The notes under the pieces: model-generated
Seen by the model: the letters and a program-made list of their open reading frames with translations, nothing else
Databases searched by the model: none
Told to the model about the DNA's origin: nothing
Shown: one piece after another, positions 9,307-42,309 of the stretch
Numbering within the stretch: the first letter of the stretch is position 1
How the letters are laid out: the number at the start of each line of letters is the position of its first letter
Position numbers and translations under genes: made by a program
Assembly: GCF_002028425.1 (NCBI RefSeq)
Contig: NZ_CP020042.1
Span: 1,054,001 to 1,118,000 of the forward strand
Direction: 5' to 3'
DNA: 64,000 nt
From: Streptomyces katrae
GTDB taxonomy: Bacteria; Actinomycetota; Actinomycetes; Streptomycetales; Streptomycetaceae

Positions 9307-10347
9307 GTGCCGCAGAACCGCCCCCCGTCCGAACCCCGTTACGGCACCCGGCCGACCATGAAGGACGTGGCGGCCCGGGCGGGCGTCGGCCTGAAGACGG
9401 TGTCCCGGGTCGTCAACGGCGAGCCGGGGGTGACCCCGGACACCGAACGGCGGGTCCAGGACGCCATCGACGCCCTCGGCTTCCGGCGCAACGACAGCGC
9501 CCGCGTCCTGCGCAAGGGCCGGACCGCCACCGTCGGCCTGGTCCTGGAGGACCTGGCCGATCCCTTCTACGGTCCCCTCAACCGGGCCGTCGAGGAGGTG
9601 GCGCGCACCCACGGCGCCCTGCTGATCAACGGCTCCAGTGCCGAAGATCCGGACCGGGAACGGGAGTTGGCGCTCGCACTGTGCGCCCGCCGGGTGGACG
9701 GCCTGATCGTGATCCCGGCCGGCGACGACCACCGCTACCTGGAGCCGGAGATCCGGGCCGGGGTGGCCACGGTGTTCGTGGACCGCCCGGCGGGCGGGAT
9801 CGAGGCGGACGTGGTGATGTCGGACAGCTTCGGCGGCGCCCGGGACGGGGTGGCCCACCTGATCGCCGCCGGGCACCGGCGGATCGGCTTCATCGGGGAC
9901 CACCCCCGCATCCACACCGCCACGGAACGCCTGCGCGGCTACCGCGAGGCGATGGCGGGTGCGGGCCTGCCGGTGTCCGGATCCTGGGTCTCCCTCGGCT
10001 CGACGGCCCCGGAACGGGTGGCGGCGGCGGCCGGGGCGATGCTGTCGGGCCCGGAGCCGGTGACGGCCGTCTTCGCCGGCAACAACCGGGTCACCGTCAC
10101 CGTCGTACGGGTCCTCGCGGCCCTCCCCCGGCCCGTGGCGCTGGTCGGCTTCGACGACTTCGAACTGGCCGACCTGCTGCGCCCCGGGGTCACGGTGATC
10201 GCCCAGGACCCGGCGGCCCTGGGCCGGGTGGCCACGGACCGCCTCTTCCAACGCCTGTCGGGCACCGCCCTCCCCCCGACCCGCACCGTCCTGCCGACCC
10301 GCCTGATCCCCCGCGGCTCGGGCGAACTCCCCCCGTTCACCGGATGA
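9307..10347 (+). CDS. LacI family transcriptional regulator
   Basis: A 346-residue repressor starting at GTG 9307, with GGAGG 10 bases upstream. After a basic, Pro-rich tail the LacI helix-turn-helix and hinge are clear at about 17-65 (TMKDVAARAGVGLKTVSRVVNGE, with the hinge helix near FRRNDSARVLR). The rest is a periplasmic-binding-protein-like sensor (VGLVLEDLADPFYGPL, GHRRIGFIGD, VALVGFDDFELADLL). It probably senses a sugar or related small molecule. No sugar transporter is adjacent, so the target is likely elsewhere; it is divergent from the kinase-Nudix gene, which is a possible local target. Confidence 0.93.
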   Translation: MPQNRPPSEPRYGTRPTMKDVAARAGVGLKTVSRVVNGEPGVTPDTERRVQDAIDALGFRRNDSARVLRKGRTATVGLVLEDLADPFYGPLNRAVEEVARTHGALLINGSSAEDPDRERELALALCARRVDGLIVIPAGDDHRYLEPEIRAGVATVFVDRPAGGIEADVVMSDSFGGARDGVAHLIAAGHRRIGFIGDHPRIHTATERLRGYREAMAGAGLPVSGSWVSLGSTAPERVAAAAGAMLSGPEPVTAVFAGNNRVTVTVVRVLAALPRPVALVGFDDFELADLLRPGVTVIAQDPAALGRVATDRLFQRLSGTALPPTRTVLPTRLIPRGSGELPPFTG

Positions 10348-10531
10348 CCCCCCGCAACCCGGGCACGGCCCCGCAGGCGGCGGTGAGTCCGGCGAGAACG
10401 GCCAGAGCGGGCGGCATCCCGCCCAGGTAGCTCAGCCCGCCGGTGACGAGCCCGGCGAACAGGGCGCAGAGGAGCACGACGGCGGCGTGCAGGGTCAGGA
10501 AGGGTGGATCTGTGTCCGGGGGTGTGGTCAT
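10337..10531 (-). CDS. Small two-helix membrane protein
   Basis: A 64-residue protein with two predicted membrane helices (LHAAVVLLCALFAGLVTGGL and ALAVLAGLTAACGAV) and a short cytosolic or external Pro/Asp-rich N-terminus. The ATG at 10531 gives a compact product; longer in-frame extensions overlap the promoter of the WD40 gene. Its 3' end overlaps the LacI stop by 11 bases on the opposite strand. Similar short proteins are frequent in Streptomyces, and no function is known. Confidence 0.6.
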   Translation of the reverse strand: MTTPPDTDPPFLTLHAAVVLLCALFAGLVTGGLSYLGGMPPALAVLAGLTAACGAVPGLRGVIR

Positions 10532-10664
10532 GCCCCGATTCCACCGCCCCGCACGCCGGCACGCCGCCCCCACCGGACGATCCCGGACCGCCTCCGGACA
10601 CCGCCGGACACCGGTGCTGACCGGCACTGTCCGGGATCGTCCGGCGACGCGCGCAGCCCGGCCG

Positions 10665-10670
10665 TAACCT
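10665..10670 (+). promoter_or_regulatory. Likely -10 element of a leaderless promoter
   Basis: TAACCT lies nine bases before ATG 10679, and GTG 10676 lies in between, so transcription probably begins at or very near the start codon of the HTH-WD40 gene. Confidence 0.5.
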
Positions 10671-10678
10671 GTGCGGTG

Positions 10679-12703
10679 ATGGACAGCGTGCGTGCATTCA
10701 GCGAAGAACTGGAGTCGTTCGCGGCGGACTTGCGGCGGCTGCGGCTCGACCGGGGCAACCGGTCGTACCGCGAACTCACCGCCCGTGCGGCGAAGTCCAA
10801 GACCGGGATCCGGCTTCCGGTGTCCACCCAGAGCGACGCTTTCCGCGGGGACGGCCTTCCGAGGCTGGACAGCCTGATGGGCCTGGTCCGGATCCTCCTC
10901 TCCTACGACGAGTTCGGCCAGGAGCGGCCCGTCCCGCCCCACAACTCCCCCGAGTTGGAGCACTGGCGCCGCCGCTGGCGCGACCTGGCCGCCCTGGCAC
11001 CGCTGCGGCGCTCACCGGCACCCGCAGCGGTCGTGACGCAGGAGCGCGCACCCGTCCCCGCCTACAGGAGCAGGTTCACGCTGGCGCACGTGCTCACCAC
11101 GCGGGCGGACAACAACTGGTGCGCGGCCTTCTCTCCCGACGGCCGGCTCCTCGCCGTGTCCGGATCACACGAGGACGAGGCAGTGGTCCAACTGTGGGAT
11201 CCCGTCCGGGGAGTGGCCGTCGGTGAGCTCGCGGACAGACCCCTTGCCTTCTCGCTGGCGTTCTCCCCCGGCGGCCACCTCCTGGCCGTTGGAGACTGCG
11301 AGGGCGCGGTGACCTTGTGGGACACCGCGACCTTCGCACGGGTAGGAGCGCCCCTGCTCGGCCACGGCCGCTCCGTCGACGTGGTCGTCTTCGCGGCGGA
11401 CGGCCGGACCCTGGTCACTGCCGACGACGAGATCGTCCACCGATGGGACATCACGACCGGAGAGCCTGCCGAATCACCTCTGTTCGGCGAGATCGAGGCG
11501 ATGTTCTGCCGCCCCGATGGCAGCATCCTGGCCGCGCTCAGGACCAAGCACACACTGCGTCTGTGGGATCTCGCGAGCGCTGCGAGTGCCGGCAGACCTC
11601 TCATCGACAACATCGACGGACCCGTCGAGGCCACGTTCTCCCCTGACGGCGCCCTGTTGGCCACGACCTACGACCACGAGACCCTGCTGTGGTCCACCTC
11701 GACCAGCACCCTCGCGCGCAGGCTGCCCGAGGCAGCCGACAGTGGGGCCACCATGGCGTTCTCCCGGGACAGCCGCCTACTGGCCACCACGAGCGACCAC
11801 GGCACCGTACGGCTCTGGGACCCTTCGACCGGGGCGCTCCTGGGCCCGCCCCTGGCGGAGTACAAGGGTCCGTTCGACCGGTTGGCCATGTCCCCCGACG
11901 GCCGCATGCTCGCTCTCTGCGGCGAGGCCGACACCCTCGTGGTGTACCGCGCGAAACCGGACGAGGAACCCCCGACTCCCCTGCCGCTGGCGGCACGGGC
12001 CCTCGACAGCGCCCTGCGCAAGCACCGGGCCGTGGCCCTGCCTCCCCTGGCGTCGGAAACCGGGGTTGCCCTGCGCCGGCTGGCGTTCTCGCCCGACGGC
12101 AGCCGTCTCCGGGTCCGCACCGAGGACGGCCTGATCCTCACCTGGGACCCGGCGGCGCGCGTCCGGCTGCCCGAAACCCTGGCCTCGCCATCGGGGCCGG
12201 ACCTCTCCGCAGACGGCGTCCCGGCCAGGAGCGGGCTGGCCGCCGCGATCGGCGAGCGGGCGGCGCGGTGGGATCCGGCGGCCCCGGAAAGCGGCGGCCT
12301 GGAGCTGGAGGCCCACCTCAGCAGCGCCGGCGCCGTGGCCTTCTCCCCGGACGGCCGGCTGCTGGCGACCGGCGACGCCGGCGGACACATCGTGCTGTGG
12401 GACATGAGCACCCCCGAGGGCCCCGGCCGCCACCTCTCCGGGCACACCGGAGCAGTGTGCGACCTGGCGTTCTCCCCGCAGGGGCACCGGCTCGCCAGTG
12501 CGGGCTCGGACGGCACCGTGCAGCTCTGGGACACCGCCACGGGTGAGGCCGCCACCGACCTGCCGCTGACCGGACACACCGGTGCGGTCCGGGGTGTCGC
12601 CTTCGCCCCCGACGCGAGCCTGCTGGCCTCCGCCGGGGACGACGGCACCCTGCGCTGCTGGCTCCTGCCGGCCCCGCACACGCCGACGGCCCGCCCCCGG
12701 TGA
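10679..12703 (+). CDS. HTH domain fused to WD40 beta-propellers
   Basis: A 674-residue protein. The N-terminal ~95 residues (FAADLRRLRLDRGNRSYRELTARA ... DAFRGDGLPRLDSL) are a helix-turn-helix domain of the kind seen at the N-terminus of large Streptomyces NTPase and WD40 proteins. From about residue 135 onward there are some twelve WD40-type repeats recognisable by FSPDG...LA and LWD motifs (LWDPVRG, LWDTATF, RWDITTG, LWDLASA, LWDPSTG, LWDMSTP, LWDTATG), enough for two seven-bladed propellers when degenerate blades are counted. The NTPase domain often found between the HTH and propellers is absent. It is probably a DNA- or protein-binding scaffold. The stop codon sits in the loop of a terminator hairpin. 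Confidence 0.88.
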   Translation: MDSVRAFSEELESFAADLRRLRLDRGNRSYRELTARAAKSKTGIRLPVSTQSDAFRGDGLPRLDSLMGLVRILLSYDEFGQERPVPPHNSPELEHWRRRWRDLAALAPLRRSPAPAAVVTQERAPVPAYRSRFTLAHVLTTRADNNWCAAFSPDGRLLAVSGSHEDEAVVQLWDPVRGVAVGELADRPLAFSLAFSPGGHLLAVGDCEGAVTLWDTATFARVGAPLLGHGRSVDVVVFAADGRTLVTADDEIVHRWDITTGEPAESPLFGEIEAMFCRPDGSILAALRTKHTLRLWDLASAASAGRPLIDNIDGPVEATFSPDGALLATTYDHETLLWSTSTSTLARRLPEAADSGATMAFSRDSRLLATTSDHGTVRLWDPSTGALLGPPLAEYKGPFDRLAMSPDGRMLALCGEADTLVVYRAKPDEEPPTPLPLAARALDSALRKHRAVALPPLASETGVALRRLAFSPDGSRLRVRTEDGLILTWDPAARVRLPETLASPSGPDLSADGVPARSGLAAAIGERAARWDPAAPESGGLELEAHLSSAGAVAFSPDGRLLATGDAGGHIVLWDMSTPEGPGRHLSGHTGAVCDLAFSPQGHRLASAGSDGTVQLWDTATGEAATDLPLTGHTGAVRGVAFAPDASLLASAGDDGTLRCWLLPAPHTPTARPR

Positions 12704-37372: not shown

Positions 37373-37388
37373 ACGGTCTTATGACCGT
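37373..37388. promoter_or_regulatory. Inverted repeat before the PLP operon (ACGGTC-N4-GACCGT)
   Basis: Perfect six-base arms around TTAT, 46 bases before the first gene of the PLP-enzyme operon and 22 after the GNAT stop. Position fits an operator over the promoter; a terminator for the GNAT gene is the alternative. Confidence 0.5.
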
Positions 37389-37433
37389 TTGCCGACACCG
37401 GTACGCATTCCTCGGCGGAGAGGAACAGCTGGG

Positions 37434-38948
37434 ATGAGCAACGACCCCATGAACGGCGGCCCTTCGCACAGCGGCTCCTTGTCCCCTCCCTTGTACCTGG
37501 AACCGAGGCTCGCACCGCGCACGGCGGCCCTGCTGGAGTCGCCGGCGTTCCTGCACGGCCTCGTCGACGCCCTCGGATCGCCCCTCAACGTGATCCTGCC
37601 CGACCAGATCGCCGACAACGTCCGGGGCTTTCACGAGGTGTTCGCCCGCCACCGGCTCAGCGGGCGGATCTTCTTCGCGCACAAGGCTAACCGCTCCAGC
37701 GCCCTCGTCCGCCGGCTGACCACCACCGGCGCGGCCCTCGACGCCGCCTCCCTCGGGGAGTTGCGGCACGCCCTGGGCTCCGGGTTCGCCGGAGCCGAGG
37801 TCATGGCCACCGGCCCCAAGGACCCCGACTTCCTCTGGCTCGCCGCCCGCAGCGGGACCCTGGTCAACGCCGACGGCGCGGACGAGCTGGAGCGGGCGGC
37901 GGCCCTGGTGCGGGCACACGGGCTGCCCCGCCTGCGCGTGCTGGTACGGCTGTCCGGGTTCGAGGCGCCCGGGGCCCGGCGGCTCTCGCGCCGCAGCCGC
38001 TTCGGCACCCCCGTGAAGTCCCTGCACCGGCTGCTCGACGTCCTCGACCGCCACCGCGGCGAGCTGGAGCCCGTCGGGGTCGGCTACCACCTCGACACCA
38101 CCAGCGTGGAGGAGAAGGCCGCGGCGCTGGAGGGCTGCCTGCACGCCATGGAGGAGTTGCGCCTCCGCCGCTTCCAGCCGCGGGCCATCGACGTCGGCGG
38201 CGGCTTCGGCGTCGGCTACCTGGCCCACGCCGCCCAGTGGGAGCGCTACACCACCGAGCTGACCCGCGCCGTGCTGGGCGCCCGTCCGCCCCTGACCTGG
38301 GGCGGGCACGGCTACGGCCTGCGCGCCGAGAACGGCACCCTCCGCGGCGCCCTCGGCCTCTACCCGGCCCATCGCACCACCGCGGGCCCCGGCTACCTCG
38401 ACGAACTCCTCTCCCTCCCGGCCCCGGGCCTGGGCCGCCCCCTGGGCACCCTGCTCCTGGAGGGCCTTTACGAGCTCTACGCAGAACCGGGCCGCGCCCT
38501 GGCCGACCAGTGCGGGCTCACCCTGGGCAGGGTCCTGGAGGTGCGGTCCTCCGGCGGCGGGGAGAGCCTGGTCCGGCTGGCGATGAACGCCGGCGACGTC
38601 AGCCTGGAGGACCACGGCGTCCTCGTGGACCCGGTGCTCCTGCCCCGCGCGCCCTCCCCGCCCGGCGGTCCGGTCCCGGTCGCGGTGCACCTCATGGGCA
38701 ACCTCTGCCTGGAGTCGGACCTGATCACCCGCCGGACCGTGTTCCTGCCCCGGCAGCCGCACCCCGGCGACCTCCTCGCCTTCGCCAACACCGCCGGGTA
38801 CTGCATGGACTTCGGCGCGACCCGCGCCCAGGGGCAGGCCCTCGCGCGCAAGGTCGCCGTCCACCGGGAGGGGGCGGACGGCGACTGGCAGTGGTGCCTG
38901 GACGAGCAGTACTGGCCTTTCACACGTACGGGGGAAGCGCAGGGATGA
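37434..38948 (+). CDS. Y4yA family PLP-dependent (fold type III) decarboxylase-like enzyme
   Basis: A 504-residue enzyme starting at ATG 37434, with GAGAGGAAC upstream. It belongs to the ornithine/diaminopimelate decarboxylase superfamily: PLP lysine K84 in IFFAHKANRSS, the glycine-rich phosphate site DVGGGFGVGYL, and the C-terminal CLESD motif at about 425 supplying the active-site cysteine and aspartate from the dimer partner. It matches the family named after rhizobial Y4yA, whose substrate is not established. It probably decarboxylates an amino acid. Its stop overlaps the next start (ATGA), the first of several coupled junctions. Confidence 0.88.
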   Translation: MSNDPMNGGPSHSGSLSPPLYLEPRLAPRTAALLESPAFLHGLVDALGSPLNVILPDQIADNVRGFHEVFARHRLSGRIFFAHKANRSSALVRRLTTTGAALDAASLGELRHALGSGFAGAEVMATGPKDPDFLWLAARSGTLVNADGADELERAAALVRAHGLPRLRVLVRLSGFEAPGARRLSRRSRFGTPVKSLHRLLDVLDRHRGELEPVGVGYHLDTTSVEEKAAALEGCLHAMEELRLRRFQPRAIDVGGGFGVGYLAHAAQWERYTTELTRAVLGARPPLTWGGHGYGLRAENGTLRGALGLYPAHRTTAGPGYLDELLSLPAPGLGRPLGTLLLEGLYELYAEPGRALADQCGLTLGRVLEVRSSGGGESLVRLAMNAGDVSLEDHGVLVDPVLLPRAPSPPGGPVPVAVHLMGNLCLESDLITRRTVFLPRQPHPGDLLAFANTAGYCMDFGATRAQGQALARKVAVHREGADGDWQWCLDEQYWPFTRTGEAQG

Positions 38949-40264
38949 GGTACGACAGCATCACCGAAGCCATCGGCGGGACACCGCTGGTCCGCATCGA
39001 CCCGGCCGTACACGGCCTGCGCCACATCGACCTCTACGCCAAGCTGGAGATGCTCAACCCCTTCGGCTCGCTCAAGGACCGGGCCGCCTGGAACATGACC
39101 CGTGACGAGCTCGCCGGCGCCGCGGAGCGCGGCGAGACGGTCGTGGAACTGTCCAGCGGGAACACCGCCAAGGCCCTGGCCCTGATCGCCGGACTGCACG
39201 GGCTGGCGTTCAAGAGCGTCACCAACCGGATGCGGATCCCCGAGGTCAAGGACCTGCTCCTGCTGCTCGGCGCCGAGATCGAGGAGCTGCCCGGGCGCAG
39301 CGAATGCCTCGACCCGACCGACGAGGACGATCCGCTGACCCTCTTCCACCGGCAGCTGAACCTCCCTGGCAGCGCGCACCTGCACACCGACCAGTACTTC
39401 AACGTCCTCAACACCGAGGCCCACGCCTCCGGGACCGGCCCGGAGATCATCGCCGATCTGGACGGCCGGGCCCCCGACTGGTTCGTGGCCTGCGTGGGCA
39501 CGGCCGGTTCCTCCACCGGGGTGGCGCGGGCGCTGCGCGCTCACGATCCGGCGGTGCGCGTCGTGGGCCTGGTCGGGGAGAAGTCGGACTTCATCCCGGG
39601 CATCCGCACCATCGACGAGGTGCAGGAGGTCGGGATCTTCGACCCGGCGACGTACGACACCCTGGAGCCGGTGGGCTCCGACGAGGCCATCGAGGGGATG
39701 CTGACGCTGCTGCGCCGCTGCGGGCTGCTCTCCGGGCCGACCGGCGGGGCCGCGTACTTCGGCGCGGTCCGCCATCTGCGGGAGGTGGACGCCGGGCTGA
39801 CGGAGCGCAGGACGGCGGTGTTCATCGTCTGCGACCGGGTGGAGAGCTACGTCGGCTATGTACGGCGGCGCCGCCCGGACCTGATGGGGCTGCCTCCCGT
39901 GCGGAACTCGGTGGCCACGCTGACCGAGGCGGAGGTGGCCTCGGCCGCCGTGATCGGGGTGGACGAGGCCCGCAAGTGGATCGCGGAGCGCCAGCCGCTG
40001 GTCGTGGACCTGCGCGGGCCCTTCGCGTACGCCGCGCTGCACATCGAGGGGTCGGTGAACATCGTGGACGGGCTCTTCGAGGAACTCCTGCGGGGCGGGC
40101 TGCCGTTCGGCCGGAGCCGGCCGGTCCTGCTGGCCTGCCCGGTGGGTGAGAAGTCGGCCCGGTACGCGGCCCTGCTGACCCGGATGGGACATCCCGACGT
40201 CCGCAGCCTGGCCGGCGGGATCATCGCCTGGCGGGACGCCGGCGCTCCCCTGGTGCGTGACTGA
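38945..40264 (+). CDS. Cysteine synthase-like PLP enzyme fused to a rhodanese domain
   Basis: A 439-residue fusion starting at ATG 38945 (ATGA overlap with the gene before). Residues 1-310 are a fold type II PLP enzyme: K44 in NPFGSLKDRAA, the substrate loop SSGNTAKAL and the phosphate site VGTAGSSTG. Residues about 335-439 are a rhodanese domain with VVDLRGPFAYAALHIEGSVNI and an active-site loop CPVGEK (C398). The pairing suggests that sulfur carried as a rhodanese persulfide is used by, or taken from, the PLP domain to make or break a C-S bond. The exact reaction is unknown. Confidence 0.88.
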   Translation: MRYDSITEAIGGTPLVRIDPAVHGLRHIDLYAKLEMLNPFGSLKDRAAWNMTRDELAGAAERGETVVELSSGNTAKALALIAGLHGLAFKSVTNRMRIPEVKDLLLLLGAEIEELPGRSECLDPTDEDDPLTLFHRQLNLPGSAHLHTDQYFNVLNTEAHASGTGPEIIADLDGRAPDWFVACVGTAGSSTGVARALRAHDPAVRVVGLVGEKSDFIPGIRTIDEVQEVGIFDPATYDTLEPVGSDEAIEGMLTLLRRCGLLSGPTGGAAYFGAVRHLREVDAGLTERRTAVFIVCDRVESYVGYVRRRRPDLMGLPPVRNSVATLTEAEVASAAVIGVDEARKWIAERQPLVVDLRGPFAYAALHIEGSVNIVDGLFEELLRGGLPFGRSRPVLLACPVGEKSARYAALLTRMGHPDVRSLAGGIIAWRDAGAPLVRD

Positions 40265-41465
40265 CGTGGCCGCCCCCGCCGCCGAGCTGGCGGCCCTCGC
40301 CGACTGGCAGCGGCCGCTGCGCGCCCAGTTCCCGATCCTCGCGGGGCAACCGGACCTGGTCTACCTGGACAGCGCCGCGACCTCCCAGAAGCCCCAGCCC
40401 GTCCTGGACGCCGTGCAGAGGTACCTGACCACCTCCAACGCCAACGCGGCACGCGGCTCCTACCCGTGGGCCAACACCACGACGGCGCTGGTGGAGGGCG
40501 CCCGGGAGCGGGTCAAGCGCTTCCTGGGCGATCCGGATCCGCAGCGTTCCTCGGTCCACTTCACCAGCGGGACCACGGAGGGGCTGAGGGTCGTCGCCCG
40601 GGACTGGCTGCCGTCCCTGCTCGTCGACGGGGACGAGATCGTCGTCCCGTTCGCCGACCACCAGGCGAACCTGTCGCCCTGGCTGGAGGCCCGGGACCTG
40701 CTGGCCCGCCAGGGGGTGCGGGTCCGGGTCCGGGAGCTGCCGTACCAGGCGGCTTCCGGGGACTACGACCCTCGGGCGCTGGCGGCGGTCACCGGGCCCC
40801 GGACCCGTTTCGTGGCCGTCACCCACGTCCACCACGTCTACGGCGCCGACATGAACGTGCACCGGATCCGGCAGGTGGTCGGGCCGCAGGTGCCGATCTG
40901 TCTGGACGCGGCGCAGAGCATCGGGCACCTGCCGGTCTCGGTGGCCGGTCTGGACGTGGACTTCGTGGTGTTCTCCGGGCACAAGGCGATGGCCCTGCCG
41001 GGGACGGGGGCGGTCTGGGCCCGGGGACTGCGCGGCCCGCGGCTGAGGCCCGGCGGCTGGAGCGGGACCCCCAACACGGCCGGGATCGCGAGCCTGACCG
41101 CTGCCCTGGACTGGCTGGACGCCGCCGGTCTCGGGCGGATCGAGCGCTGGACGGTCGCCCTGACGGCGCTGCTGACCGACGGGCTGGCCCGGATGGACGC
41201 CTACGAGGTGCTCGGCTGCCGGACCAGTCTGGCGGCGGGGTCCCGGGTCCAGCGGCGCCGCAGCCTGGTCACCTTCCGGCACCGGGGGATCGACTCCCGC
41301 GACCTCGGGTTCATCCTCTTCAGCCGCGGGTTCATGGTGCGCACCGACGGCCACTGCCAGGCGGGGCGGGGCGCGGAGGAGGGCTCCGTGCGCGTCAGCC
41401 TGCACGTGCACAACACCCCCGGGGAGGTGGAGGAGCTCCTCGCCACCCTCGCCAGTCTGCAATGA
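40257..41465 (+). CDS. Aminotransferase class V / cysteine desulfurase-like enzyme
   Basis: A 402-residue fold type I PLP enzyme starting at GTG 40257, overlapping the preceding gene by eight bases. SufS-like motifs are present: YLDSAATSQKPQPVLDAV, THVHHVYGADMNVH, the PLP lysine K243 in VVFSGHKAMALPGTG and a cysteine (C367) in RTDGHCQAG at the place of the persulfide-carrying cysteine of cysteine desulfurases. No SufU/SufE or Fe-S assembly gene is nearby, so sulfur probably goes to the rhodanese-fused partner. A selenocysteine lyase or transaminase role is an alternative. Confidence 0.88.
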   Translation: MTDVAAPAAELAALADWQRPLRAQFPILAGQPDLVYLDSAATSQKPQPVLDAVQRYLTTSNANAARGSYPWANTTTALVEGARERVKRFLGDPDPQRSSVHFTSGTTEGLRVVARDWLPSLLVDGDEIVVPFADHQANLSPWLEARDLLARQGVRVRVRELPYQAASGDYDPRALAAVTGPRTRFVAVTHVHHVYGADMNVHRIRQVVGPQVPICLDAAQSIGHLPVSVAGLDVDFVVFSGHKAMALPGTGAVWARGLRGPRLRPGGWSGTPNTAGIASLTAALDWLDAAGLGRIERWTVALTALLTDGLARMDAYEVLGCRTSLAAGSRVQRRRSLVTFRHRGIDSRDLGFILFSRGFMVRTDGHCQAGRGAEEGSVRVSLHVHNTPGEVEELLATLASLQ

Positions 41466-41511
41466 TTTCCATGAGCGGATCGGCTTCGGTGGCGGAGGCA
41501 GTGCGAACGGC

Positions 41512-42309
41512 ATGGGCGCGGGCATGGGTGCGGGCACGGATGCGGGCACGGGCGGCGTGAGTACGGGGACGGCGGCGCGCTGGGTGGAGCGCTGGGAGCG
41601 CCAGCAGCAGCGGTACGCGGTGGACCGCGAGGAGAGGTTCGCGGTCATCGCCGACCTGGTCGAGCACGTGGCGGGCGGCCGGCCCGCGCCGCTGGTGCTC
41701 GACCTGGGCAGCGGGCCCGGCTGCCTGGCCGCCCGGCTGGCCGCCCGGCTGCCGGGCGCGGAGGTGCTGGCGGTCGACGCGGACCCGCTGCTGCTGGAAC
41801 TCGGCAGCGCCCATTACGGCCGCTCCCTGCGCTACGTCAACACGCTGATCGGCGAGCCGGGCTGGGTGGGCCGGCTGGGCCTGGACCGCCCCGCGGACGC
41901 GGTGGTGTCGACGACCGCCCTGCACTACCTCGGCGAGCGGACCCTGCGTCAGGTGTACGGGGAACTCGCCGGGCTGCTGCGGCCCGGCGGGATCCTGGTC
42001 AACGGCGACCACATCAGCCCGGACTCGGTCCGGATGTCCGAACTCGCGCGGGACGTCGGGCGCCGCCACGCCGAACGCAACGCGGCCTGCGGCCACGAGG
42101 AGGACTGGGAGTCCTGGTGGGCGGGCGCGGCCGGCGATCCGGAGCTGGCCCCGCTGCTCCACCGCGGGGGCGAGGGCGGCCGGGCCCCGTGCGAGGGCAA
42201 CGACCTCACCGTCTCCGGCCATGTCGCGCTGCTGCGCGAGGCGGGGTTCGCGGACGTGGGGGTCGTCTGGCAGGTCGGCCCGAGCCATGTGCTGGCCGCC
42301 GTCCGCTGA
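41512..42309 (+). CDS. Class I SAM-dependent methyltransferase
   Basis: A 265-residue methyltransferase. The SAM motif I is LVLDLGSGPGCLAARLA (about 61-77), the acidic residue after strand 2 is in VLAVDADPLLL, and the post-motif ADAVVSTTALHYLGE and LLRPGGILVNGDH follow. The start is uncertain: ATG 41512 has GGAGG 13 bases upstream and a GC-rich third position; GTG 41557 has a four-base overlap with a tiny upstream frame. The N-terminal MGAG/GTDAG repeats are low complexity. As the last gene of the PLP operon it probably methylates its product. Confidence 0.88.
   Translation: MGAGMGAGTDAGTGGVSTGTAARWVERWERQQQRYAVDREERFAVIADLVEHVAGGRPAPLVLDLGSGPGCLAARLAARLPGAEVLAVDADPLLLELGSAHYGRSLRYVNTLIGEPGWVGRLGLDRPADAVVSTTALHYLGERTLRQVYGELAGLLRPGGILVNGDHISPDSVRMSELARDVGRRHAERNAACGHEEDWESWWAGAAGDPELAPLLHRGGEGGRAPCEGNDLTVSGHVALLREAGFADVGVVWQVGPSHVLAAVR

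Follow-up and report, generated by a model that had tools for sequence, protein, structure and literature searches.

The analysed stretch of Streptomyces katrae DNA (64 kb, hereafter the window) belongs to a genome of 8.06 Mb and carries a cassette of four genes. Three encode enzymes dependent on pyridoxal 5'-phosphate (PLP), one of them fused to a rhodanese domain, and the fourth encodes a methyltransferase. The genes, domains and key residues were located as follows, with conservation counted in aligned cassette loci.

37434..38948, + strand: Y4yA-type fold-III PLP decarboxylase, 504 amino acids; Pfam Orn_Arg_deC_N, 75 bits; closest to LysA
37683-37685, + strand: K84, predicted Schiff-base lysine of Y4yA; K in 103/106 loci
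38945..40264, + strand: PALP-rhodanese fusion (PALP-Rhd), 439 amino acids; Pfam PALP 174.5 bits, Rhodanese 55.5 bits
residues about 1-304 of PALP-Rhd, + strand: PALP domain (Pfam)
residues about 340-431 of PALP-Rhd (39962-40237), + strand: rhodanese domain (Pfam)
39074..39076, + strand: K44, PLP Schiff-base lysine of the PALP domain; K in 106/106
39305..39307, + strand: C121 of PALP-Rhd, a cysteine particular to the cassette, in a loop without counterpart in CysM or CysK; C in 104/106
40136..40138, + strand: C398, active-site cysteine of the rhodanese domain in the loop CPVGEKS; C in 105/105, one row cut
40257..41465, + strand: SufS-like class-V PLP enzyme (cysteine desulfurase) with a GTG start; Pfam Aminotran_5, 244 bits
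40983-40985, + strand: K243 of the SufS-like enzyme; K in 93/93, one row cut
41355-41357, + strand: C367 of the SufS-like enzyme; C in 93/93, one row cut
41512..42309, + strand: class-I S-adenosylmethionine methyltransferase; Pfam Methyltransf_25, 47.7 bits

Y4yA and PALP-Rhd were joined by a 4-base ATGA overlap, PALP-Rhd and the desulfurase by an 8-base overlap. A first-pass annotation of the window had described this gene set and this coupling, and both were seen again. Its residues K84, K44, C398, K243 and C367 were all found at their positions, given the Y4yA start codon ATG at 37434. The start of the region at 37373 in that annotation lies upstream of the gene, and the numbering of K84 fits the ATG at 37434. 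Since conservation of the methyltransferase begins near codon 15-16, GTG 41557 is its likelier start.

The cassette was surveyed in 61 sampled genomes; the genus of the window contributed 37 of them, its own genome included. Full-length PALP-Rhd was present in 14 genomes, all within this genus (14 of the 37). The survey of gene co-occurrence that the first-pass annotation had proposed returned the four genes together, in the same order, in 14/14 Streptomyces loci. Outside the cassette, no open reading frame was common to more than three of the other loci. This comparison overlooked some methyltransferases that were overlapped by spurious open reading frames; gene order was counted separately. 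Because the flanks are not shared, the cassette is, judged from these loci, self-contained and sits at different genomic places, and because its order is kept nevertheless, the four-gene arrangement is not due to chance.

A second sample, from another actinobacterial family, gave a PALP-Rhd match in 22/201 genomes. Among the 28 loci fetched, Y4yA lay upstream in 28/28 and a desulfurase was found in 24/28. A scan of named genomes yielded 62 loci with Y4yA upstream of PALP-Rhd in 62/62; a SufS-like desulfurase was present in 54, an IscS-like enzyme in 4 and none was found in 4, three of these on contigs shorter than 10 kb. The two sets add up to 90 further loci, 85 of them distinct, and each had Y4yA upstream of PALP-Rhd; five genomes were in both sets (L107/L164, L108/L165, L106/L167, L113/L204 and L115/L205). 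The residue alignment comprised 106 rows, in which doubled genomes are counted twice and rows L104, L186 and L062, cut at a contig end or a stop, show as gaps. Hosts were Streptomyces, Kitasatospora, Actinoplanes, Micromonospora, Nocardia, Hoyosella, Millisia, Rhodococcus and Cellulomonas. More distant hosts, at 40-48% identity, were Melainabacteria/Obscuribacterales, Micavibrio, Rhodospirillaceae and a metagenome-assembled genome (MAG) of Cryomorphaceae. A phage collection held no record covering 80% of the fusion. The methyltransferase was not found beside some of the 28 and 62 loci and the desulfurase was missing beside a few, so Y4yA and PALP-Rhd are, by this distribution, the core of the cassette.

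The Schiff-base lysine and the cysteine and glutamate of a CES-type motif have established roles in LysA-like fold-III decarboxylases. In Y4yA, this cysteine was kept in 103/106 rows and the glutamate in 98/106; seven distant loci had Ser or Thr in place of the glutamate, and one row had a gap. K84 was missing from three rows, among them L181, in which Y4yA was recovered in two BLAST pieces. The catalytic and substrate-binding residues of Escherichia coli SufS, H123, D200, Q203, K226, R359, C364 and R379 (E. coli numbering), were kept in 40/40 loci. In place of H55, 39 loci had Gly or Ala and one had Arg; in place of N175, 39 had His. With 244.2 bits, the window enzyme fell below the cut-off of 475.1 of the NCBIfam SufS model TIGR01979. 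The enzyme may work like SufS, yet files as a separate subgroup. In four Micavibrio/Melainabacteria loci, an IscS/DndA-type desulfurase was located upstream instead, with a cysteine in a GxACxxG-type loop, which we take to be a desulfurase motif. This replacement in four distant loci suggests that desulfurase activity itself is wanted by the cassette. Together with the invariance of C367 (93/93) and C398 (105/105), it makes a sulfur relay between desulfurase and rhodanese likely.

The PALP domain grouped with CysM in the phylogenetic tree with supports of 94/91, just under the threshold of the tool, and was sister to actinobacterial CysM with only 85/62. It stood apart from the SbnA-like PALP proteins that accompany other Y4yA enzymes (99/93), in a midpoint-rooted tree that had some long-branched SbnA-like rows and did not include aspergillomarasmine A (AMA) synthetase. 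Against the NCBIfam CysM model TIGR01138 the domain reached 152.1 bits, below the cut-off of 394.2. Filing as SbnA-type was rejected, with 129.6 bits against a cut-off of 349.95 (TIGR03945) and the separate position in the tree. Further marks of the cassette in this domain were K76 (106/106) and R95 (99/106). C121 is a candidate second sulfur or metal site. It was kept in L101-L103, three loci without a nearby desulfurase, and its two exceptions came from one Lolliginicoccus genome fetched twice. In this genome (L. suaedae, L115/L205), PALP-Rhd was kept, C121 was replaced by Ser, Y4yA lacked K84 and no desulfurase was near; the locus is, by these changes, a decaying or repurposed copy. In another locus (L062:9246-10691), a Nocardia-type Y4yA was broken by one in-frame stop between open neighbours, and the gene was open in L109 and L114.

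Putative operators of the zinc regulator Zur were scored with the 15-mer TGAAAATNATTTTCA, which has 14 scored positions; the available text of PMC5472717 gives tGaNNatSatNNtCa as the S. coelicolor Zur motif. Boxes of at least 11/14 within about 200 nt upstream of Y4yA occurred in 12/50 actinobacterial loci, where the background of the same loci predicts 0.40 (binomial 5.7e-15), and in 4/12 other loci, with 0.46 expected (8e-4). The methyltransferase was matched in 39 of the 50 loci, and 12 of these 39 had a box of at least 10 in front of it, against 0.82 expected. The strict pattern TGAAAANSRTTWTCA was present once per genome in G398, G414 and G373, always before the cassette; these genomes share one genus label and two are named Hoyosella. 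It was absent from G426. In G377 it occurred once, away from the cassette, before a gene read as zinc-free S14, and two further boxes preceded an L28 gene, then S18. All six Nocardia-type loci (L062, L109-L112 and L114) contained between one and three boxes scoring 11-14. A search of three Streptomyces genomes with the pattern TGRNAAYSRTTNYCA gave nine sites (2, 4 and 3), against none for the reversed control. These sites lay at znuA in all three genomes (one checked by Pfam), at L28 in the window's own genome, at an L33/S14 stretch beside the cassette in G019, at the cassette methyltransferase in G019 and G036, and at two places without an assigned gene. Upstream of the methyltransferase, the best 15-mer scored 9-12 in 16/16 Streptomyces cassettes including that of the window, with a mean of 10.0; the background mean was 6.6, and 2.5% of 6,400 background windows reached 9. 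In 11/16 Streptomyces loci a TAGRNT stretch followed this box and is read as a putative -10 element. Putative Zur operators precede the decarboxylase or the methyltransferase more often than expected by chance. Zinc control of the window's own copy is weakly suggested by the first of two regulatory-type features noted there.

41457..41471, no strand: degenerate Zur-box-like 15-mer CTGCAATGATTTCCA, overlapping the desulfurase stop; 9/14 scored positions
37373..37388, no strand: palindrome ACGGTC-TTAT-GACCGT, 5' of Y4yA

Before the methyltransferase, the window and its two closest relatives retained no more than the degenerate CTGCAATGATTTYCA, whereas most relatives have a better box at the place that corresponds to the 15-mer of the window. 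The palindrome recurred in L030 as ACGGTC-GTAT-GACCGT and was absent from the other 22 loci compared. Just before Y4yA, a stretch like GGGCGTAAAG...TATACGGCGAA...GCGGGGAG was seen by eye in L031, L032, L033, L034, L040, L060 and L069; it is not a Zur box and is possibly a promoter or another operator. In several Streptomyces loci the stretch reads like GGGCGTAAAG...TATACGG.

Genes related to zinc adjoined some of the relatives. ZnuA-family genes were near 5/62 loci and zinc-free ribosomal paralogues near 4/62. Such paralogues were found in three more of 44 sources, with five each in L035 and L037 and one in L030. In L215, a Fur-family gene and a ZnuA-family gene followed the methyltransferase. 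A ZnuA-family gene and an ABC-3 gene did so in L223, whose substrate-binding protein scored alike for manganese and zinc models. The first-pass annotation had read the cassette as a transfer of cysteine sulfur through C367 and C398 to an amino acid that is then decarboxylated and methylated. The co-occurrence of the set, the retained SufS residues and the invariant sulfur-carrying cysteines agree with the sulfur transfer in that reading; its simple sulfur amino acid product is retained here only as one element of the explanation preferred below. The four-gene set proved not to be universal, and the link to zinc, visible in relatives as Zur-type boxes and as znuA-family and zinc-free ribosomal-protein neighbours, had been overlooked.

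Gene order and content varied among the loci. The Hoyosella-type order was Y4yA, PALP-Rhd, desulfurase, ATP-grasp ligase, major facilitator superfamily (MFS) exporter, methyltransferase; in L105, the dapdiamide-synthase-like ligase and the exporter occupied 10016-12573 between desulfurase and methyltransferase. The ligase scored 337 bits for PRK07206, above the cut-off of 302, and 215 bits for dapdiamide A synthase, far below the cut-off of that model. It was present in 16/62 loci, including S. zagrosensis, S. bikiniensis, S. poonensis and two Kitasatospora, and in none of a separate set of Streptomyces loci examined. Ligase and exporter shared a gene run with the cassette in Hoyosella, Millisia, Cellulomonas, the three named Streptomyces and the two Kitasatospora loci. 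Divergent FecCD and periplasmic binding protein genes lay upstream in L106, and an oligopeptide/nickel-type ABC set adjoined L113. A Nocardia-type variant had the order desulfurase, a 429-residue protein with a C-terminal heavy-metal-associated (HMA) domain, Y4yA, PALP-Rhd. The HMA protein (L063:5022-6311, with relatives in L064, L091-L102 and L104) carried the HMA motif DMTCKHC. Its N-terminal part had no Pfam match, and the model of the protein had no match in PDB at an E-value of 0.001 or better; its C-terminal part resembled Atx1-like copper chaperones in weaker structural matches. L208 (Obscuribacterales) had extra amine-oxidoreductase, GNAT and methyltransferase genes and two Fur-family regulators. 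In L214 (a Micavibrio MAG), a Fur-family gene overlapped the end of PALP-Rhd and matched the Zur model best, with 102.5 bits at a cut-off of 167. Directly upstream of Y4yA, L214, L218, L220 and L225 (Micavibrio, Melainabacteria and Rhodospirillaceae) had a gene for a MinD/CooC-like P-loop ATPase, an assignment by Pfam for L214 only and, for the likeness to CooC, by eye.

Relatives of Y4yA outside the cassette had other partners. They adjoined an SbnA-like PALP and an ornithine cyclodeaminase, often with a MATE exporter, or an opine dehydrogenase and IucA/IucC (NGR234 and Sinorhizobium meliloti), or an FAD/NAD-binding protein (Sulfitobacter and Tsukamurella). These wider operons look like 2,3-diaminopropionate or [S,S]-ethylenediaminedisuccinate (EDDS)-type chelator operons. 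No box of at least 11 was found next to the genes of 12 of them. Searches with SbnB-like ornithine cyclodeaminase and IucA/IucC proteins found neither beside the 28 or the 62 cassette loci. By its gene content, the cassette keeps the decarboxylase, and a CysM-type PALP-Rhd and a desulfurase replace the nitrogen-type PALP and its oxidase. On an Agrobacterium Ti plasmid (CP048488.1, L056), Y4yA, PALP and ornithine cyclodeaminase genes were located beside phosphoenolpyruvate-mutase/phosphonate-type genes. On plasmids of Mycobacterium intracellulare and M. avium (L053 and L061), Y4yA occurred with PALP genes and a MATE exporter, near ArsR/SmtB-type or other metal-sensitive regulators; L061 also had an ornithine cyclodeaminase.

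No described pathway with this gene set was found in the open-licence literature among the matches listed, in keeping with the first-pass annotation, which had known of none. The closest systems shared parts of it. AMA synthetase (PDB 8h4h and 8h4q) and Fda4 of Fusarium poae combine a PALP with a rhodanese domain, C-terminal in AMA synthetase as in the cassette, and 8h4q is titled as the complex of AMA synthetase with O-phosphoserine. The AlphaFold model of PALP-Rhd (predicted local distance difference test 83.8) had AMA synthetase as its best full-length structural match, by a narrow margin. AMA sequesters zinc, according to the title of PMC8319579. Unlike the cassette, both enzymes are fungal and form C-N bonds, no Y4yA or desulfurase partner is mentioned in the portions of the sources available, and the rhodanese parts of AMA synthetase and the cassette did not match in a sequence search. 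The EDDS pathway of Amycolatopsis japonicum is, in the accessible parts of PMC4993170 and PMC6103462, a Zur-controlled route to a small zinc chelator outside nonribosomal peptide synthetase (NRPS) or NRPS-independent siderophore (NIS) logic, as proposed here for the cassette. It uses SbnA/SbnB-like enzymes, in whose place the cassette encodes a CysM-type PALP-Rhd together with a desulfurase. The pathway resembles the Y4yA operons with SbnA-like, ornithine cyclodeaminase and MATE genes, which are presumably linked to the EDDS genes. Actinobacterial CysM with CysO and the MoeZ rhodanese has the same O-phosphoserine-type PALP fold as the cassette and, with support just under the threshold of the tool, falls in the same tree group; CysM receives its sulfur from the protein carrier CysO. 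The cassette differs by the fused rhodanese, by K76, R95 and C121, and by the partner decarboxylase. In Sinorhizobium fredii NGR234, the cluster y4yB-y4yA-y4xP-y4xO-y4xN-y4xM likewise has Y4yA followed directly by a PALP protein (PMC3973906, in part); unlike PALP-Rhd, this protein is SbnA-like and without rhodanese, and opine-dehydrogenase and IucA/IucC genes take the place of the desulfurase.

The gene set, the residues, the PALP lineage, the Zur-type operators and the zinc-gene neighbours of the relatives were read from the sequences; from them we infer the direction of sulfur flow, the substrates, the order of steps, the product, its secretion and the zinc control of the window copy. We lean, with a little better than even confidence, towards a cassette that makes a small metal-binding molecule for zinc scarcity, either a zincophore or a zinc-buffering thiol, by way of a sulfur relay. 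The SufS-like enzyme would take the sulfur of cysteine as a persulfide on C367 and pass it to C398 of the rhodanese domain, which would deliver it to the fused CysM-type PLP domain. This domain would substitute the sulfur at the beta-carbon of an O-phosphoserine-like substrate. Decarboxylation by Y4yA of the alpha-amino acid unit so formed would leave an aminoethyl group, and the methyltransferase would cap the product. In other actinomycetes and some Streptomyces and Kitasatospora, the dapdiamide-synthase-like ATP-grasp ligase would couple the product to a further acid, and the MFS exporter would secrete it in ligase-bearing loci. A bolder version falls somewhat short of an even chance: that here, for the first time, a metallophore pathway runs on a persulfide relay, in which a desulfurase-loaded rhodanese feeds sulfur directly into the beta-substitution of the fused CysM-type synthase and a decarboxylated aminoethyl-sulfur ligand, methylated or amidated, scavenges zinc across actinomycetes and beyond.

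Several observations weigh against the zinc-related sulfur relay. The window's own box reached 9/14 and lay before the methyltransferase only; before Y4yA, the best candidate in the window scored 8/14 and was rejected, and only 5/16 Streptomyces loci reached 9 there. Neither strict-pattern site of the window's own genome was at the cassette, and no zinc gene was found in the 64-kb window by the seed proteins used. Boxes of at least 11 preceded the methyltransferase in 2/39 loci against 0.31 expected (0.04) and were absent from 16 HMA-type loci; the loci are related, and the binomial values overstate their independence. The Fur-family gene of L215 scored best for iron Fur models, all under cut-off. 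The grouping of the PALP domain with CysM falls under the star threshold of the tool. No desulfurase was nearby in 4/28 and 4/62 loci, with one genome in both sets and some loci cut by contig ends, and no transporter was common to the 14 Streptomyces neighbourhoods. If sulfur simply went from cysteine through the rhodanese into new cysteine, the cycle would be futile; a different product or substrate is needed to avoid this. Finally, the characterised PALP-rhodanese enzymes form C-N bonds from O-phosphoserine, as far as the available text of PMC12751119 goes.

This last point leads to an alternative in which PALP-Rhd, like AMA synthetase or Fda4, condenses O-phosphoserine with an amino acid through a C-N bond. 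Y4yA would then decarboxylate the conjugate towards an EDDS-like chelator, and rhodanese and desulfurase would act at another step or regulate. The C-N bonds formed by the fungal synthetase with the same domains speak for it; the cassette PALP, however, groups with CysM rather than with the SbnA-like PALPs found next to other Y4yA enzymes. A sequence search with the cassette rhodanese part gave 29 matches, none of them AMA synthetase, and with a root-mean-square deviation of 20 the domain arrangement of that enzyme differs from that of the PALP-Rhd model. The invariant persulfide-type cysteines and the recurrent desulfurases are left unexplained, and we regard this nitrogen coupling as unlikely, though to be taken seriously. 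In another reading, the cassette would supply a low-molecular-weight thiol or a pool of cysteine inside the cell, either to buffer zinc or to stand in for a sulfur route that depends on zinc, and nothing would be secreted. This would suit the missing common transporter, the CysM lineage of the PALP domain and the adjoining zinc-free ribosomal paralogues, which point to zinc sparing. It appears quite improbable, given the ligase and exporter genes in the Hoyosella, Millisia, Cellulomonas, Streptomyces and Kitasatospora loci named above, the ABC importer genes beside L106 and L113, and the decarboxylase, which cysteine supply does not need. Rhodaneses and beta-cyanoalanine synthases both detoxify cyanide, and beta-cyanoalanine synthases were among the PALP matches, so that a detoxification with persulfide from the desulfurase was considered. 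It is very improbable, as the PALP domain is CysM-like and Y4yA, ligase, methyltransferase and Zur boxes are left unexplained.

The cassette points to a widespread pathway with a link to zinc starvation. A sulfur relay, if real, would be a new way to make metal ligands, with a rhodanese domain feeding a fused PLP synthase. The question can be tested directly by zinc limitation and metabolomics in Streptomyces.

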